A stretch of DNA of 64,000 nt from Lactarius indigo (taxonomy: Eukaryota; Basidiomycota; Agaricomycetes; Russulales; Russulaceae). Shown one piece after another: positions 37,822-54,115 of this stretch (positions within the stretch are counted from its first letter, which is position 1; each line of letters opens with the position of its first letter). Both the position numbers and the translations under genes were made by a program. Where the stretch lies: the NCBI GenBank assembly GCA_025766275.1, contig JAFKAC010000009.1:1302001-1366000 (forward strand), written 5' to 3'. A model generated the notes under the pieces. It did not search any database and had not been told where the DNA came from. It worked only from the letters and a program-made list of their open reading frames with translations.

Positions 37822-38091
37822 CTACTCATCATCATCATCATCATCGATGTCCTCCCCATCGTCCGCAACACTGATGATGCCTCCGGTGGTTCTTTCTCTT
37901 AGTTCGCGTCCGCTTCCGCTAGTTTCGGCCCAAACACCTTTCGTGCACCAAAGTTCGCGCCGACATCCCAATTCTGTAGTTTGGCTTTTCAGCCCGCCGC
38001 GGCGAGCGTTAAAGGATTGTCAGGAGACCAGACAGCCAAGAAGATCTCGCCATCCAGGGCTCAGTTAGTACAACACCGGTCGTCGCGCTCA
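37822..38091 (-). pseudogene. PWP1 3' fragment
   Basis: The minus-strand sequence matches exon 7 of the intact PWP1 (53820-54047) and part of the preceding intron. The acidic tail codons have expanded into a CAT/ATG-type trinucleotide run (37826-37846). Frameshifting differences are present. It is cut by the foldback element at 38092 and has no upstream exons. Confidence 0.85.
38089..38091. repeat. Target site duplication TCA, left
   Basis: TCA directly precedes the element's CACTG terminus and is repeated at 47105-47107. Joining the flanks at one TCA restores the sequence found at the uninterrupted PWP1 copy (cgcgctyaccagtccgag, compare 54092-54109). Confidence 0.75.
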
Positions 38092-38690
38092 CACTGACAG
38101 CATGATTCTGTCTTTACACGAAAAGATTGTAAAAAAGTGATGACTAATACTTAAAGATTTTATAAAATCTGTACTCGGAAAATTATGGTAAATGGACTTT
38201 AAGTCCATTCAGGGATTATCAGATGAGAAAAACTGTGAAAAAACTTAACAATTACATATGCAAAAAACATATAGCTTATGTCACAATTGTCCTCAAGAAA
38301 AGCTGTGGCATGAATTTAAAGTCTTTCCACAATTTCTCAGAAACAGAAAATCCCTGAAAAGACATAAAGTCCATACTTGTCACACCTGTCACGCATTTTT
38401 TCACAGTCCATTCTGTGGCCACATTCAGAAAAGATTTAATGTTTTTTCATTGAAAAATAACTTAACAATTTCTGCTACACAAGACTCCATGTAAAAATTT
38501 AAAAGTTATCACAAAATCAGTAAGCCAGGTTACCTGAAACTCACATAATATATTATTTAGGGAAACTATTCATAGATAATATATTCAATAAGTGTCAGAA
38601 TTGGAGACTCACAGTGTCAGAGAGTTGGAGTGTCAGAGTGTCAGAGAGTTAGAAAGTCAGATTGTCAGAGTGTCGGAGAGTCAGAGTGTC
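38092..38690 (+). repeat. Long terminal inverted repeat, left arm
   Basis: It pairs with 46505-47104. The terminal part includes a small internal inverted pair GACAG...CTGTC (38096-38112). A 78-codon frame (38258-38494) occurs identically in both arms. I take it as chance, because it starts inside the repeat and has no known motif. The few differences from the right arm that I saw are C/T transitions. Confidence 0.85.
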
Positions 38691-39604
38691 GGAGTGTCAG
38701 AGTGTCGGAGAGTCAGAGTGTCGGAGAGTCAGAGTGTCAGAGTGTCGGAGAGCCAGACAGTCAGAGTGTCGGAGTGTCAGACAGTCAGACAGTCAGACAG
38801 TCAGACAGTCAGACAGTCAGACAGTCAGTGAGTCAGAGAGTCGGAGAGTCAGAGCGTCAGAGTGTCGGAGAGTCAGACAGTCAGACAGTCGGAGTGTTGG
38901 AGTGTCAGACAGTCAGAGTGTCAGAGTGTCAGAGTGTCAGACAGTCAGAGAGTCGGAGAGCCAGAGAGTCAGAGAATCAGAGAGTCGGAGAGTCAGAGCA
39001 TCAGAGTGTTGGAGAGTCAGACAGTCAGACAGTCAGACAGTCAGACAGTCAGAGAGTCAGAGAGTTGGAGAGTCAGAGAGTCAGAGAGTCAGAGAGTCAG
39101 AGAGTCAGAGAGTTGGAGTGTCAGAGAGTCGGAGAGTCAGAGAGTTGGAGAGTCAGAGAGTTGGAGTGTCAGAGAGTTGGAGTGTCAGACAGTCAGACAG
39201 TCAGAGTGTCAGAGTGTCAGAGTGTCAGAGTGTCAGACAGTCAGAGAGTTGGAGAGTCAGAGTGTCGGAGAGTCAGAGCATCAGAGTGTTGGAGAGTCAG
39301 ACAGTCAGACAGTCAGACAGTCAGAGTGTCAGAGTGTCAGAGTGTCAGAGTGTCAGAGTGTCAGAGAGTCGGAGAGTCAGAGTGTCAGAGTGTCGGAGAG
39401 TCAGACAGTCAGACAGTCGGAGTGTCGGAGTGTCAGAGTGTCAGAGTGTCAGACAGTCAGACAGTTGGAGAGTCAGAGAGACGGAGAATCAGAGAGTTGG
39501 AGAGTCAGAGCGTCAGAGTGTAGGAGAGTCAGACAGTCAGACAGTCAGAGAGTTGGAGAGTCAGAGAGTCGGAGAGTCAGACAGTCAGACAGTCAGACAG
39601 TCAG
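38592..39604 (+). repeat. Octamer tandem array 1 (left arm)
   Basis: Contiguous 8-bp units of the type GTCAGAGT, with variants GTCAGAGA, GTCAGACA, GTCGGAGA and GTTGGAGA. Because the period is not a multiple of three and the unit has no stop word, all three forward frames stay open and encode the same Ser/Glu/Gln/Val/Arg peptide. These are not genes. Confidence 0.95.
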
Positions 39605-40092
39605 TGTTACGCTCCACCGGTGTCAGTCTGACTTGGACTTAGGATAGGCGTAATCAACTTAGTAAAGATAGGTGAATGGGGACCACGTGTCAACGCAACA
39701 CAAGCTGAACAGGGGCACTCTGGCACACGCTGCAGCGAAAGGGTGAAAGAGGAGTATCGTTTGATAGATACAAGCAGAGGCACCCTCAGTCCGAGACTGA
39801 GGCAGACAGGAGACGAGTTAAGAAGGTGGATTGAAGAAGACCAAGATAGGGACTCTTGGTCTTCCAAGGCAACTACTTATACAGATACACGCGGGCTTTA
39901 AAGTGCCGCTAGAATAGTAAGAGACCAGTAGCATAACTAGCTCGAACCCTAGTACAGCTATCCTAAGAATGAGTCATACATGAGTCACAATCACATGCGA
40001 ACTACCATGCTGACTGATACGGTGTAAGAGTCCATGACTAATATCAATACCAGACCGTAGTCATAACCGGTCATGAATCAGGATCCGTAACA
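39605..40092 (+). mobile_element. Solo LTR, family A
   Basis: The 488-bp segment begins TGTTAC and ends GTAACA, and is flanked by GTCAG on both sides (39600-39604 and 40093-40097). The flanking pentamer also occurs in the array, so the duplication alone is weak proof; the TG...CA ends with a 6-bp inverted repeat support it. No internal retrotransposon coding sequence is present. Confidence 0.75.
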
Positions 40093-41402
40093 GTCAGAGT
40101 GTCGGAGTGTCAGAGTGTCAGAGTGTCAGAGTGTCAGAGAGTCGGAGAGTCAGAGCGTCAGAGTGTTGGACAGTCAGACAGTCAGACAGTCAGAGTGTCA
40201 GAGTGTCAGAGTGTCAGAGTGTCAGAGTGTCAGACAGTCAGACAGTCAGAGTGTCAGAGTGTCAGACAGTCAGAGAGTTGGAGAGTCAGAGAGTCGGAGA
40301 GTTAGAGCGTCAGAGTGTCGGAGAGTCAGACAGTCAAACAGTCAGAGTGTCGGAGTGTCAGAGTGTTAGAGTGTCAGAGTGTCGGACAGTCAGACAATCA
40401 GAGTGTCAGAGTGTCAGAGAGTCAGAGAGTTGGAGAGTCAGAGAGTCAGAGAGTCAGAGAGTCGGAGAGTCAGAGAGTCGGAGAGTCAGAGAGTCGGAGA
40501 GTCAGAGAGTCGGAGAGTCAGAGAGTCGGAGAGTCAGAGAGTCGGAGAGTCAGAGAGTCGGAGAGTCAGAGAGTCGGAGAGTCAGAGAGTCGGAGAGTCA
40601 GAGAGTCGGAGAGTCAGAGAGTCGGAGAGTCAGAGAGTCGGAGAGTCAGAGAGTCGGAGAGTCAGAGAGTCGGAGAGTCAGAGCATCAGAGTGTTGGAGA
40701 GTCAGACAGTCAGACAGTCAGAGTGTCAGACAGTCAGAGAGTTGGAGAGTCAGACAGTCAGACAGTCAGACAGTTGGAGAGTCAGAGTGTCAGAGTGTTG
40801 GAGAGTCAGACAGTCAGACAGTCAGAGTGTCGGAGTGTCAGAGTGTCAGAGTGTCAGAGTGTCAGACAGTCAAACAGTCAGAGTGTCAGAGTGTCAGAGA
40901 GTCAGAGAGTCAGAGAGTCAGAGAGTCAGAGAGTCAGAGTGTTGGAGAGTCAGAGCGTCAGAGTGTCAGAGAGTCAGAGAGTTGGAGAGTCAGACAGTCA
41001 GACAGTCAGAGTGTCAGAGTGTCAGAGTGTCAGACAGTCAGAGAGTTAGAGAGTTAGAGAGTCAGAGCGTCAGAGTGTTGGAGAGTCAGAGAGTTGGAGA
41101 GTCAGAGAGTTGGGGAGTCAGAGAGTCGGAGAGTCAGAGCATCAGAGTGTCGGAGAGTCAGACAGTCAGAGTGTCAGACAGTCAGGGTGTCAGAGTGTCA
41201 GGCAGTCAGAGAGTTGGAGTGTCAGAGTGTCAGAGTGTCAGACAGTCAGAGAGTTGGAGAGTCAGAGAGTCAGGGAGTCAGAGAGTCAGAGAGTCAGAGA
41301 GTTGGAGAGTTAGAGAGTTGGAGAGTCAGAGCATCAGAGTGTTGGAGAGTTAGACAGTCAGACAGTCAGAGTGTTGGAGAGTCAGAGTGTCAGAGTGTCG
41401 GA
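40093..41402 (+). repeat. Octamer tandem array 2 (left arm)
   Basis: Same octamer family as array 1. Between about 40446 and 40680 the units alternate strictly as GTCAGAGA GTCGGAGA, a 16-bp higher-order repeat present about 15 times. This suggests recent local expansion. Confidence 0.95.
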
Positions 41403-42299
41403 TAGGGGTCTCACACCCCTTAGTTCTTCATTCTCAGCTTCCTTTCTGTATGTATTCTACTCCTGTTTCATGCCTTCAAAGGCCCATGTGTATTTACTCT
41501 ACTCTACTTTACTTTACTTCTATTTAGGCTTATCTCTAAAAACATAGCTAAAATGTATAAAAATGTGCTCTTGTGTACTCAAATTATTATCCAGTTGTCT
41601 TCCCCTAATCCCTCTCATGTACCTCTAAGTTCCCTCTCCAAAGTGAAGCCCTCTTTGCCTTTGTACATCTTTGCTCATCCTCTATCATCTTTCAACTTTG
41701 TGCTTTTCTCATTGCCAACTGAACTGGCTCTTTCGGAACTCATCACCTGACCGGCCCACTTAGCCAGATCACCTTCATCGCCAGACCTTTACATCACTGC
41801 TAATCTCATCCCCTTGCTCATAAAATGGTGAATTCTCATAATCCCATGTAAACTGTGGCCTTGAGGTATTTGTGGGGCCAGATTCCCATAGTATTGGACT
41901 TGGAGCAGTATTTCTTAGCCAAGGTCAAAAGGACCTGAAGGATTAAGTCCAAAGTTGGGGTCTTAGTACCGTGTGCTTTTGCTGTGGCATTGCTCGACAC
42001 GTGTTCCCCCTGATCCAAGTTGTTCTGTACTGAAATGAGCTTTCCGACACCTGACAGTTATTCTAAGCGAAATTGCACTTGGCTTTCAGCACACACATGT
42101 GCATACGCCTTTGTGACCCATTGCAATATCAATATTTGCACAGTGCAAATCATACAGAACTATTTAAGATTCAAAGCCCCCTTTATCCGTCACTACGATT
42201 TCCTCCCACTTCACAACAGTACTCATGCGTTGGCGCTCTCCCCTGTTTCCATTCCACCCCACACGCCGGTCACTCAGAGTGGCACCTAAACGCCACCCT
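41403..42299. other. Foldback loop, left part
   Basis: Unique AT-rich sequence at the centre of the quasi-palindrome. The short frames here show no transposase motif. A hairpin-like word (ggggtctcacacccc) stands at its left edge. Confidence 0.5.
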
Positions 42300-43041
42300 T
42301 GTCACGCCTCTGCGGGGGCGTGGGCTTCTGTAATGGCTTCCTGTCACATGGCAGTCAACAGCCAAGTCGGATCGGCACTGTGTGCAACGACTCCTAAGTT
42401 CCTCTGTAACAGCTCCTACACTGAGGTAACTGAGTCGGTGACAATCCCCCTGTGCCGAGGTGGGAAGGTCGTTCTGTAACAGCCCCTTGCAATGAGGTGA
42501 CTGAGTCTGTTGGCAATGGACGAGCTCGGTGGCCTAAGTCCTAAGGTCACGTGTCACTGGGCTGACCAGTAAGACAGGAGGAGGATGAGAGCGAAGTTAA
42601 GGGGGAAGCCTGCACAGAGGCTGAGAGGGGAATGACCCAAAGGGGACAAGGGTCAAGGGTCAGAGGTTCTGGGTCAAGGGTTTGAGTGCTGAAGGAACTG
42701 AGGCACTCAAGGAGTCAATGGGAGATACAGCGCAGATAGTTGATTAAGCCAAAGCTAAGGAGCTAAGGCGCACTACAGGGTTCCTTATATAGTACAGGAT
42801 TGCACCTGAGCGCATAGTGCTACTGGTTGCTATAGATAGAATAATGTGCTGGCAAGATGGTGTTAACATCGTGCAAGATGGTGTTATGCCAGCAAGGCAA
42901 AAGAAGGGTGATTAAGAATAGCACAGAAGGTGCCAGAACAATCAGATAAAGGGGGAGCATAGGTTCAAGAAGGGCAATAGCTAAGAAAGGAGATGGATCA
43001 GATAAGGACAAGAAGGGAAAAGTAGCAGGGGGTTCGTGACA
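42300..43041 (+). mobile_element. Solo LTR, family B, copy 1
   Basis: The 742-bp segment begins TGTCACGCCTC and ends TTCGTGACA, with the duplication ACCCT on both sides (42295-42299 and 43042-43046). It is the inverted homologue of 44306-45045. No gag-pol sequence is present. Confidence 0.88.
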
Positions 43042-43046
43042 ACCCT

Positions 43047-43326
43047 GACCCTGCAGAAACGGGTAGTCTGCAGGTTCCAGTTGTCAATGAGGTGTGGCTT
43101 CTTGTCATATTCACCTCAACTCATGAATTATCTCGCACTCTAGGCAGTTTCCAACTATGAGAATAGAGAAGATTGTGCTGCCAGAGAAAACCCGACCGCA
43201 CCCATGCAAATTGAGTCACATAACCAGGTGAGCTTTTGCTCAAAATCATCCGTTCAGGTGCTCTAAATGAATTGCCAAGTTTCTGACAGGTGATCCAGGC
43301 CACACACTGCCTTCTGAGGTCCCTGA
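43047..43326. other. Foldback loop, right part
   Basis: About 280 bp of unique sequence between the solo LTR and the first right-arm array. Nothing recognised. Confidence 0.45.
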
Positions 43327-44305
43327 GACTGTGACTGACTGTCTGACTGTCTGACTCTCCAACTCTCTGATGCTCTGACTCTCTGACTCTCTGACACTCC
43401 GACTCTCTGACTCTCTGACTCTCTGACTCTCTGATTGTCTGACTGTCTGACACTCCGACACTCTGACTCTCTGACTGTCTGACTCTCCAACACTCTGACG
43501 CTCTGACTCTCCGACTCTCTGACTCTCCGATGCTCTGACTCTCCGACTCTCTGACTCTCTGACGCTCTGACTCTCCGACTCTCTGACTCTCCGACGCTCT
43601 GACTCTCCGACTCTCTGACTCTCCGATGCTCTGACTCTCCGATGCTCTGACTCTCCGACTCTCTGACTCTCCGACGCTCTGACTCTCCGACTCTCTGACT
43701 CTCCGACGCTCTGACTCTCCGACTCTCTGACTCTCCGACGCTCTGACTCTCTGACTCTCTGACTCTCCGACTCTCTGACTCTCTGACTCTCTGACTCTCC
43801 AACTCTCTGACTGTCTGACTGTCTGACACTCTGACACTCTGACTCTCCAACTCTCTGACACTCTGACACTCTGACACTCTGACACTCTGACACTCTGACA
43901 CTCCGACTCTCTGACACTCCGACTCTCTGACTCTCTGACTCTCTGATTGTCTGACTCTCTGACTCTCCAACACTCTGATGCTCTGACTCTCCGACTCTCT
44001 AACACTCCAACTCTCTGACTGTCTGACTCTCTAATTGTCTGACTGTCTGACACTCCAACACTCTGACTGTCTGACTGTCTGACTCTCCAACACTCTGATA
44101 CTCTGACTCTCTGACTCTCTGACTCTCCAACTCTCTGACTCTCTGACTCTCTAATTGTCTGACTGTCTGACACTCCAACACTCTGACACTCTGACACTCT
44201 GACTCTCCGACACTCTGACACTCTGACACTCTGACACTCTGACTCTCCAACTCTCTGACTCTCCAACACTCTGACTGTCTGACTGTCTGACACTCTGACA
44301 CTCTG
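43327..44305 (-). repeat. Octamer tandem array 3 (right arm)
   Basis: Same octamers as arrays 1 and 2 but on the minus strand (CTCTGAC-type units). Open frames of up to 401 codons here are products of the repeat. Confidence 0.95.
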
Positions 44306-45045
44306 TGTCATGAACTCCCCGGTCACCTTTCCTTTTCTGCCCTTATCTGATCCATTCCCTTTCTCAGCAGTTACCTCTCTTGAACCTATGCTTCCCGTTT
44401 ATCTGATTATTCCAGCACCTTCTGTGCTATTCTTGTCTACCCTTCTTCTGCCTTGCTGGCATAACACCATCTTGCACGATGTTGATACCATTTTGCCAGC
44501 ACATTATTCTATCTATAGCAACCAGTAGCACTATGCGCTCAGGCGCAATCCTGTACTATATAAGGAACCCTGTAGTGCGCCTTAGCTCCTTAGCTTTGGC
44601 TTAATCAACTATCTGCGTTGTATCTCCACTGCCTCCTTGAGTGCCTCAGTCCCTTCAGCACTCAAGCCCTTGACCCAGAACCTCTGACCCTTGACCCTCT
44701 TCCCCTTTGGGTCACTCCCCTCTCAGCCTCTGTGTAGGCTTCCCCTTGACTTCGCTCTTACCCTCTTCCTGTCTTACTGGTCAGCCCAGTGACACGTGAC
44801 CTTTGGACTTAGGCCACCGAGCTCGTCCATTGCTACAGACTCAGTCACCTTAGCACAAGGGGCTGTTACAGAAGGACCTTCCCACCACAGTACAGGGGGA
44901 TTGCCACAGACTCAGCTACCTTAGCATAGGAGCTGTTACAGAGGACTATAGGAGTCGTTGCACACAGTGCCGATCCAACTTGGCTATCGACTGCCACGTG
45001 ACAGGAAGCCATTACAGAAGCCCATGCCCCCGCAGAGGCGTGACA
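44306..45045 (-). mobile_element. Solo LTR, family B, copy 2
   Basis: The 740-bp segment is oriented opposite to 42300-43041, with ends TGTCACGCC and GTTCATGACA on the minus strand. CTCTG flanks both ends (44301-44305, 45046-45050). It lies within the octamer array, so it inserted after the array formed. Confidence 0.88.
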
Positions 45046-45217
45046 CTCTGACTGTCTGACACTCTGACACTCTGACTGTCTGACTGTCTGACTCTCCAAC
45101 ACTCTGACACTCTGACACTCTGACACTCTGACACTCCGACTCTCTGACACTCTGACACTCTGACTGTCTGACACTCTGACACTCTGACTGTCTGACTGTC
45201 TGACTCTCCAACACTCT
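45046..45217 (-). repeat. Octamer tandem array 4 (right arm)
   Basis: A short stretch of the same minus-strand octamers, left between two solo LTRs. Confidence 0.9.
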
Positions 45218-45844
45218 TGTTGATAAGTGACCCTTGCGCACTTAGCGGCTTGTACGGACCGGACTTGCAGCATGGACTGCTTTAGATTAGATATACAGGA
45301 CTTGTAGATTAGATACTGTTTGATCTGTACAATCTGGACTTATCATTGCGTCACATATGACATCACTGTACTTCTAATGACATCATACATCCGGACCCTG
45401 CGTTGTATAACGCCTTTGTACTTTCCTTTGTTCTTTACTTGGTGTTATCTTTATTATGATGTCAGTATGATATCATCTAGTTCTGGACTCTTCTTGTTCT
45501 TCTCTCCCTTGTTCCCAAAGCGTCCACTCTTTTGTCCCTTTGTAGAACAATAGCACCTTTATATTCTGTGACTAGCGTTACTTATCTTATACTACTGTCA
45601 CCCTCTGTAGGAGTATAAGTAGAGTACCATGTACGCTCCTGGTCCACATCAGTTCTCACTGCTTGTGTGCCAGGTAAGCCTCCTTTCCTCCAATGTAACA
45701 ACATCAGTTCTCACTGCTTGTGTGCCAGACTCCCTGCTTTACTTGCAAGATCCCCTGTTACACCTCTGCTTCCAGCTACCTTCCATATCTCACCACAGTC
45801 CTCTTGTCCACTGTGAGTATGGTCTTTATGTATGCTGTTCATCA
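45218..45844 (+). mobile_element. Solo LTR, family C
   Basis: The 627-bp segment begins TGTTGATAAG and ends TTCATCA. ACTCT flanks both sides (45213-45217, 45845-45849). Inside, a 27-bp stretch (catcagttctcactgcttg...) is repeated near 45646 and 45704. Copia-like start. No coding domain. Confidence 0.75.
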
Positions 45845-46605
45845 ACTCTGACACTCTGACACTCTGACACTCTGACACTCCGACTCTCTGACACTCTGAC
45901 ACTCCGACTCTCTGACACTCTGACACTCTGACTGTCTGACTGTCTGACATTCTGACACTCTGACTGTCTGACTGTCTGACTGTCTGACACTCTGACACTC
46001 TGACTGTCTGACTGTCTGACACTCCAACACTCTGACTGTCTGACTGTCTGACTCTCCGACACTCTGACACTCTGACACTCTGACACTCTGACACTCCGAC
46101 TCTCTGACTCTCTGACTCTCTGATTGTCTGACTGTCTGACACTCCAACACTCTGACGCTCTGACTGTCTGACTGTCTGACACTCTGACACTCTGACTCTC
46201 CGACTCTCCGACTCTCCGACTCTCCAACTCTCCGACTCTCTGACTCTCCAACTCTCTGACTCTCCGACTCTCTGACTGTCTGACACTCTGACACTCTGAC
46301 ACTCTGACTGTCTGACTGTCTAACTGTCTGACACTCCGACACTCTGACTGTCTGACTGTCTGACTCTCCGACACTCTGATGCTCTGACTCTCCGACTCTC
46401 TGACTCTCCAACACTCTGACTGTCTGACTGTCTGACTGTCTGACACTCCGACACTCTGACTGTCTGACTGTCTGACACTCTGACTGTCTGACACTCTGAC
46501 TCTCCGACACTCTGACTCTCCGACACTCTGACAATCTGACTTTCTAACTCTCTGACACTCTGACACTCCAACTCTCTGACACTGTGAGTCTCCAATTCTG
46601 ACACT
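45845..46605 (-). repeat. Octamer tandem array 5 (right arm)
   Basis: Outermost right-arm array. Its outer part matches array 1 in inverted order before passing into the non-repetitive terminal repeat. Confidence 0.95.
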
Positions 46606-47104
46606 TATTGAATATATTATCTATAAATAGTTTCCCTAAATAATATATTATGTAAGTTTCAGGTAACCTGGCTTACTGATTTTGTGATAACTTTTAAATT
46701 TTTACATGGAGTCTTGTGTAGCAGAAATTGTTAAGTTATTTTTCAATGAAAAAACATTAAATCTTTTCTGAATGTGGCCACAGAATGGACTGTGAAAAAA
46801 TGCGTGACAGGTGTGACAAGTATGGACTTTATGTCTTTTCAGGGATTTTCTGTTTCTGAGAAATTGTGGAAAGACTTTAAATTCATGCCACAGCTTTTCT
46901 TGAGGACAATTGTGACATAAGCTATATGTTTTTTGCATATGTAATTGTTAAGTTTTTTCACAGTTTTTCTCATCTGATAATCCCTGAATGGACTTAAAGT
47001 CCATTTACCATAATTTTCCAAGTACAGATTTTATAAAATCTTTAAGTATTAGTCATCACTTTTTTACAATCTTTTTGTGTAAAGACAGAATCATGCTGTC
47101 AGTG
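46505..47104 (-). repeat. Long terminal inverted repeat, right arm
   Basis: Inverted partner of 38092-38690, ending GAATCATGCTGTCAGTG. Near-identity over about 600 bp suggests a young insertion or sequence homogenisation between arms. Confidence 0.85.
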
Positions 47105-47107
47105 TCA
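47105..47107. repeat. Target site duplication TCA, right
   Basis: Right partner of 38089-38091. Confidence 0.75.
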
Positions 47108-53680: not shown

Positions 53681-54115
53681 AGCGAATGAATGTAGCCCTG
53701 CTTTACTTTTTACAGTAATCCATTTATCAAGTCGCCGCCGTTTGTCCTATTCGAGCCGAATCACGTAGATTGTAGCATGGATTAGCTCGTGCGGTGGCCT
53801 GGCAGGTCAGCACAAACAACTACTGCTCTTCATCGTCATCACTGTCCTCCTCATCGTCCGCAACACCGATGACGCCTCCGGTGGTTCTTTCTCTCAGCTT
53901 GCGTCCCGCTTCCGCTAGCCTCGGCCCAAACACCTTTCGTGCACCAAAGTTCGCGCCGACATCCCAAATCTGTAATTTGGCTTTTGAGCCCGCCGCGGCG
54001 AGTGTTAAAGGATCGTCCGGCGACCAGACAGCCGAAAAGACCTCGCCCTGCAAAGTTTAGTTAGCACAACACTGGTATCAACCACACCTCGCGCGCTTAC
54101 CAGTCCGAGATCGCG
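53531..54115. repeat. eIF3j/PWP1 junction block, right copy
   Basis: Partner of 37515-38091 plus 47108-47125, same orientation, 16 kb apart. This copy holds the intact PWP1 3' end but only a fragment of eIF3j. Confidence 0.85.

Follow-up and report, generated by a model that had tools for sequence, protein, structure and literature searches.

A family of foldback elements with CACTA-like ends and mirrored octamer arrays in Lactarius indigo

Introduction

Between positions 1,302,001 and 1,366,000, the contig JAFKAC010000009.1 of Lactarius indigo (assembly GCA_025766275.1) holds a 9-kb near-palindrome with CACTG ends, which raises the question of what kind of mobile element joins CACTA-type termini to the architecture of a foldback, and how it moves. 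We call this 64,000-nucleotide stretch the window, number positions from its first base and refer to the near-palindrome as the window element. We found that it belongs to a family with at least 16 two-ended copies in the genome. Taking the evidence together, we consider it probable that the window element is a member of a non-autonomous, CACTA-like foldback family that has likely spread in recent times by cut-and-paste, relying on a predicted CACTA/EnSpm-like transposase from elsewhere in the genome. An initial annotation of this DNA knew of no basidiomycete family with such a layout; likewise, neither a CACTA-type foldback nor a basidiomycete foldback came up among the papers listed in our searches of open-access full texts.

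Layout of the window element

The ends, target duplication, inverted arms and opposed octamer arrays that the initial annotation had described are all present. The element spans 9,013 bp (38092-47104), starts with CACTGACAGC, ends with GCTGTCAGTG and has TCA on both sides. Each arm consists of about 510 bp of AT-rich, non-repetitive sequence, with tandem octamers lying inward of it. The two 500-bp arms are identical at all but 4 of 500 positions, and arms plus arrays can be aligned over about 1,260 bp at 90% identity. Long inverted arms with tandem repeats and a variable or absent middle are the structural marks of foldbacks, and they are found here. The 9-kb quasi-palindrome that had been reported is real in its inverted arms and arrays, while its length and part of its palindromy come from four nested solo long terminal repeats (LTRs). 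The parts are listed below; array units were counted in register, the LTRs have TG..CA ends, and the core was defined by comparison of copies.

38089..38091, no strand: target duplication TCA, left copy (a single TCA in empty site C72)
38092..38603, + strand: left arm, AT-rich non-repetitive terminal inverted repeat starting CACTGACAGC (33 genome ends at 96-100%; 4/500 differences to the right arm)
38604..39604, + strand: octamer array, 125 units
39605..40092, no strand: nested solo LTR, 488 bp, 5-bp duplication GTCAG
40093..41402, + strand: octamer array, 163 units
41403..42299, no strand: core part 1, in 6 family copies; first ~394 bp like a high-copy repeat
42300..43041, no strand: nested solo LTR, 742 bp, 5-bp duplication ACCCT
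43042..43331, no strand: core part 2
43335..44305, - strand: octamer array in opposite orientation, 121 units
44306..45045, no strand: nested solo LTR, 740 bp, 5-bp duplication CTCTG
45046..45217, - strand: octamer array, 21 units
45218..45844, no strand: nested solo LTR, 627 bp, 5-bp duplication ACTCT
45845..46592, - strand: octamer array, 92 units
46593..47104, - strand: right arm, terminal inverted repeat ending GCTGTCAGTG (terminal sequence; genome matches of the arm)
47105..47107, no strand: target duplication TCA, right copy (a single TCA in the empty site)
54076..54109, + strand: paralogous uninterrupted site with a single TTA, adjoining an 82% duplicate of the left flank (sequence comparison)

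Copies and ends of the family

Further copies, which the initial annotation had proposed to look for, were found. A 489-bp arm gave 37 genome matches, 33 of them at 96-100%, and these near-identical ends resolve into 16 inward-facing pairs plus one lone right end (C236:248808). Of 37 sites with the terminal pattern, 32 were exact, and the reversed control pattern yielded only 6 sites. All 16 pairs start with CACT and end with AGTG. Fifteen of them read CACTG..CAGTG, and copy C112 has CACTA on one side. The 13 pairs that were read whole range from 2,516 to 48,276 bp. The smallest copies measure 2.5-4.7 kb, and four short ones (C2, C243, C252 and C78; 3.6-4.7 kb) consist of little more than arms and arrays, while the C236 copy reaches 48 kb. 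The lone right end carries an array (C236:247815-248808, L061); no left partner was found for it.

Target duplications and uninterrupted sites

Among the 16 pairs, 12 are flanked by exact 3-bp duplications (TCA, GCG, GCA, AGA, GGT, TCG, ACG, AGA, TAA, CAA, GCG and CGA), and C112 has, by comparison with a paralogous site, a 3-bp duplication, CAG, with two extra bases at its right end. Two copies have 4-bp duplications (C2, GGCG; C13, TATA), both supported by empty sites, and C232 has no duplication. The initial annotation had named differing duplication sizes as refuting its reading; the two 4-bp cases do differ, yet they lie inside the 2-5 bp known from the wider CMCT group (PMC12730594).

We ran joined-flank searches for all 16 copies, in which the best 40 of 111 and the best 40 of 119 candidates were scored; the results on uninterrupted sites refer to these candidates. 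For 13 copies the queries comprised at least 180 bases, and 12 of these found an uninterrupted match elsewhere. The queries for C226, C263 and C232 had only 75-80 bases and gave no match among the best 40 of 119 candidates. All 12 empty sites were retrieved uninterrupted, with 90-100% identity over the matched flanks, and in 11 of them the junction aligns without a gap after removal of one copy of the duplication. The junction gap of the C112 site is five bases, corresponding to the CAG duplication and the two extra bases; the C243 site has an 8-base gap slightly to the right of the junction. For the window element, the initial annotation had read the empty site from sequence near 54092. An uninterrupted site does exist there, but with TTA and next to the 82% duplicate of the left flank; a better one lies at C72:60614-60684, where the flanks match at 99% over 201 bases and are exact over the 69 compared, with a single TCA.

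Nine of the 12 empty sites resemble the second allele in an assembly of a dikaryon or diploid, and among the candidates scored no insertion was common to both alleles. Recent mobility is the likely and simplest reading of these sites, although a never-occupied allele and a precise excision cannot be told apart from them. We also observed that the flanks of most tested copies recur once more at 92-100%, as expected of two haplotypes assembled side by side.

The same data bear on whether the inverted arms could be chimeric joins made during assembly. The lone end on C236 and the pair without a duplication (C232) are what such joins might leave behind. However, a duplication of 3 or 4 bp flanks 15 of the 16 pairs (in C112 with two extra bases), the 12 clean empty sites agree with these, and the four nested LTRs in the window element retain their 5-bp duplications, so that an assembly artefact is extremely improbable.

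Similarity of the two arms within a copy

In the 13 copies compared, the left and right 500-bp arms show 23 differences in total, or 1.8 per copy on average, whereas arms of different copies differ by a mean of 9.5-9.7 bases. The partner in the same copy was the nearest arm, or tied for nearest, for 24 of the 26 arms and strictly the nearest for 21. When arms were paired at random, the sum of differences averaged 121 and was never below 59, with none of 20,000 pairings as low as 23. A left arm is no nearer to the left arms of other copies than to right arms. Copying alone from an ancestor with two different arms would have produced one clade of left and one of right arms; the data call for homogenisation within each copy, with one arm exchanging sequence with the other or serving as the template for its repair.

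Octamer arrays

The left arrays consist of GAGAGTCA, GAGTGTCA and GACAGTCA units on the + strand, and the right arrays of their reverse complement. In the window element, 489 of 522 octamers in register fit GA..GT, far above chance. About 99% of the 522 units agree at positions 1, 2 and 6, and 96% at position 5; the variable positions are 3 (G/C), 4 (A/T), 7 (C/T) and 8 (A/G). All 13 copies read whole contain octamers in runs of five or more, in both orientations, with 14 to 451 units per orientation, the weakest array being the left one of C135 (14 units). Arm alignments that run into the arrays fall to 89-97% identity in 10 of the 13 copies. The alignment of C2 keeps 99.6% identity along 1,130 bp, and those of C135 and C13 break off at 548 and 580 bp, respectively, so the arrays turn over faster than the arms proper. 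A diverged (78-79%) right end at C226:2546122 (L041) also has an octamer array, composed of GACAGTCA, GAGGCTCA and GACACTCA units.

Do the octamers have a role, or are they a satellite that grew by slippage and unequal exchange in a tolerant transposon, with the mirrored arms as a by-product? Array size varies greatly between copies and arms, as would fit the latter. In addition, among 4,646 pattern matches in the 13 copies, of which about 310 (7%) would be expected by chance in sequence of even composition, positions 7-8 read CA in 3304, CG in 644, TG in 581 and TA in only 117, compared with 514 TA expected if the two positions were independent. This bias reads as CpG decay from a CG-bearing ancestor rather than as selection on a binding site, though decay and selection can both be true. 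What speaks against roleless arrays is the conservation of the register and of positions 1, 2 and 6 alongside four variable positions, and the persistence of arrays both in all 13 copies and in the 78% diverged relative. We regard a roleless satellite as a serious possibility, albeit one we would not bet on.

Ends, duplications and the search for a transposase

The features shared with CACTA/EnSpm (CMC) elements are CAC..GTG termini, a 3-bp duplication and a repeated subterminal motif, namely the octamers (13/13 copies), whose binding role is putative. Fungal EnSpm elements have CAC..GTG ends and 3-bp duplications, and the wider CMCT group mostly has CA..TG ends (PMC12730594).

We searched the genome with profiles for three transposase groups, scoring 150 of 153 candidates for Tnp2 (Transposase_21), 123 of 510 for Plavaka and 150 of 250 for KDZ. 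Tnp2 gave 149 matches, many in long open frames; two listed rows were below the cut-off. None of these 149 lies within any of the 16 pairs, and neither does any of the Plavaka and KDZ matches listed. No transposase was found among the frames selected for scanning from copies other than C263 and C232, in agreement with the initial annotation. Ten selected open frames, seven from C135 and three from C79, had no Pfam match above the cut-off, with one showing a weak DDE_3 match below it. At places with similar ends, three frames scanned from C281:499800-507800 (L047) yielded DUF6535 frames and no transposase, three short frames from C244 yielded nothing, and four frames from L041 yielded Copia-type pieces and a Sad1/UNC-like frame. 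The Tnp2 loci L052-L054 have no inverted repeat and no arm similarity, but they may not extend far enough to take in the element ends. The combination of CACTA termini and foldback architecture that had been proposed is borne out for ends, duplication and architecture. The CACTA assignment is drawn solely from ends and duplication size, no partner transposase with these ends was found, and membership in CACTA/EnSpm is unproven.

Could the family instead belong to another lineage, such as Plavaka, KDZ, Mutator or Harbinger, and be CACTA-like only at its ends? The 3-bp target of Harbinger elements is T-A-rich, a preference unseen in GCG, GGT, ACG and AGA; no search for Mutator or Harbinger genes was made. 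Canonical Harbinger elements do make 3-bp duplications too (PMC12730594), most described foldbacks are of Mutator type (PMC4079207), and Plavaka and KDZ are abundant in this genome (at least 156 and at least 175 matches, respectively), an abundance that also points to a basidiomycete host. Nevertheless, the CACTG..CAGTG ends match neither the TGT..ACA (2-bp duplication) of PlavakaA nor the CATCA..TGATG (2-3 bp) of PlavakaB, and duplications of 3-4 bp differ from those of the KDZ groups Kyakuja (7 bp) and Zisupton (8 bp) (PMC12730594). They are likewise shorter than the 8-10 bp of the Mutator-linked foldbacks Tetris and Tm1. We therefore judge another lineage to be distinctly unlikely. Shared ends with Plavaka were considered as a separate candidate and rejected: the single Plavaka family examined terminates in TGATG and then a common AAC, which matches PlavakaB.

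Nested retrotransposons and the shared core

The four solo LTRs nested in the window element have TG..CA ends and perfect 5-bp duplications and total 2,597 bp. These non-array blocks are not part of the foldback design. Those at 42300-43041 and 44306-45045 belong to one family (90.6% identity), and because this 742/740-bp pair lies in opposite orientation, it adds accidental palindromy to the element. The C226 and C236 copies contain relatives of the LTR at 39605-40092 (84-85%), which in C226 form a pair flanking Gypsy-type frames, and a 90% relative of the LTR at 45218-45844 adjoins a Copia-type gag frame in L041.

The core (41403-42299 plus 43042-43331) is common to C135, C168, C236 and C248 at 96-98%. 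Six copies contain its first 897 bases, namely the window element, C135, C168 (from base 8), C226, C236 (in two pieces) and C248. When the best 40 of 104 candidates were scored, a high-copy repeat proved 74-80% similar to the first ~394 bases; in four cases this repeat forms same-strand pairs about 5.1 kb apart. Judging from this pattern, these bases are likely an old LTR relic, which probably also adds to the 9-kb length. Three frames from the core region had no credible domain when tested against Pfam.

The large copies are enlarged by nested Gypsy-type LTR retrotransposons with a chromodomain or, in C135, by another high-copy element. Five long frames, one each from the interiors of C168, C236, C79, C259 and C226, all matched an integrase region and a chromodomain; four matched RNase H and three reverse transcriptase. 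Paired LTRs are present inside the C168, C236 and C226 copies. As an additional observation, LTR retrotransposons are nested in each other within octamer-bearing copies (L039-L040 and L014-L018; the tested frames are Gypsy-type with a chromodomain), and in coordinates of the joined stretch the C226 interior has LTR pairs at 573-1082/15812-16322 and 4460-5031/11829-12400. The element hosted by C135 is 8.2 kb long (L010:1100-9250); seven tested frames from it had no Pfam match, five other near-full copies plus long pieces occur in the genome at 97-99%, and a related family at 86-88%.

Discussion

Our preferred reading is that of a non-autonomous CACTA-like foldback family mobilised from elsewhere. 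The transposase supplied in trans would be a predicted Tnp2-type enzyme, and the uninterrupted sites would be the allele in the other nucleus of the dikaryon. The octamers may represent expanded subterminal binding sites for the transposition machinery, by analogy with plant CACTA elements, in which subterminal repeats are the targets of TNPA and work in cis during excision (PMC2613891), and with Galileo, whose arm tandem repeats were proposed to be extra binding sites (PMC3573991). Gene conversion or hairpin-templated repair within a copy could keep the arms alike. The arrays would gain and lose units and accept LTR retrotransposons while the ends are retained, which would explain why copies span 2.5 to 48 kb.

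Several findings weigh against this reading. An autonomous copy or partner with the family ends, which the initial annotation had suggested looking for, did not turn up in searches by end pattern and by similar ends, whose scope did not include the termini of Tnp2 elements. One Tnp2 match lies 7 kb inward of the lone end on C236; we take this as probably chance because the same type, judged by near-equal scores and mostly equal frame length, recurs on 11 contigs without family ends. The 48-kb C236 copy had no empty site among the candidates scored, and three of the empty sites may be paralogues (those of C168 and C112, which lie in repeated DNA, and that of C135, with two matches). The two arms of the window element are the exceptions to within-copy similarity, since each shows 2 differences to an arm of another copy and the two show 4 to each other. 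A likeness between octamer and terminus noted by eye (TGTCAG) is short and may be chance. Finally, the diverged relative L041, whose array shows that the octamers are old in the lineage, carries that array in the opposite orientation relative to its end, and octamer orientation may therefore not be fixed.

How does the family compare with known systems? Drosophila-type foldbacks (FB, Tetris) and nematode Tm1 share with it long inverted arms with internal tandem repeats, a variable middle, non-coding copies and varied arm lengths (PMC4079207, PMC3169594); Tetris and Tm1 differ from its CACTG ends, 8-bp units and short duplications. Galileo, of the P superfamily, has the same foldback appearance with internal tandem repeats and arms of changing length but makes 7-bp duplications and has a repeat unit of ~210 bp in its F subfamily; its transposase is of P type (PMC3573991). 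Conversely, plant CACTA/EnSpm Tgmt* (PMC2613891) and fungal EnSpm (PMC12730594) share the CAC..GTG ends and 3-bp duplication. Tgmt* also has a repeated subterminal motif, but its inverted repeats are imperfect and 13 bp long and its motifs asymmetric (PMC2613891), whereas the family described here has arms of ~500 bp and tens to hundreds of octamers per side.

Chromodomain-bearing elements favour heterochromatin, and this preference would suit methylated octamer arrays. One may speculate, as a scenario that we ourselves find doubtful, that a CACTA-type transposon became a foldback when its binding motif was amplified into mirrored satellite arms that can reach hundreds of octamers. Such arms would concentrate the borrowed transposase, drive self-homogenisation through hairpins and serve as a landing pad for chromodomain Gypsy elements, turning a 2.5-kb parasite into one of tens of kilobases. 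The foldback form has mostly been tied to Mutator (PMC4079207) and, in Galileo, to P transposases (PMC3573991). If the CACTA-like assignment is true, the same form would have arisen in a further lineage, and in fungi. The many heterozygous-looking insertions with clean empty sites, the graded arrays and the homogenised arms provide a natural series for studying foldback formation and the relation of repeat number to mobility.

Other elements with related ends or repeats

Miniature inverted-repeat transposable elements (MITEs) of 243 bp in this genome share CACTGAC.ACATGATT-type ends with the family and are flanked by CAT/CAT (L044) and CAT/CGT (L048); they differ in having no arrays and CAGTG at one end of each. 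A short MITE with related ends, L049, has no matching duplication. Two compared Plavaka copies contain tandem repeats that align at several offsets and differ between the two places (L050:2432-3090). At two places, L047 (C281:499800-507800) and C157:346601-350295, CACTGACAACATGATT-like ends face outward at a distance of about 3.6 kb from each other.

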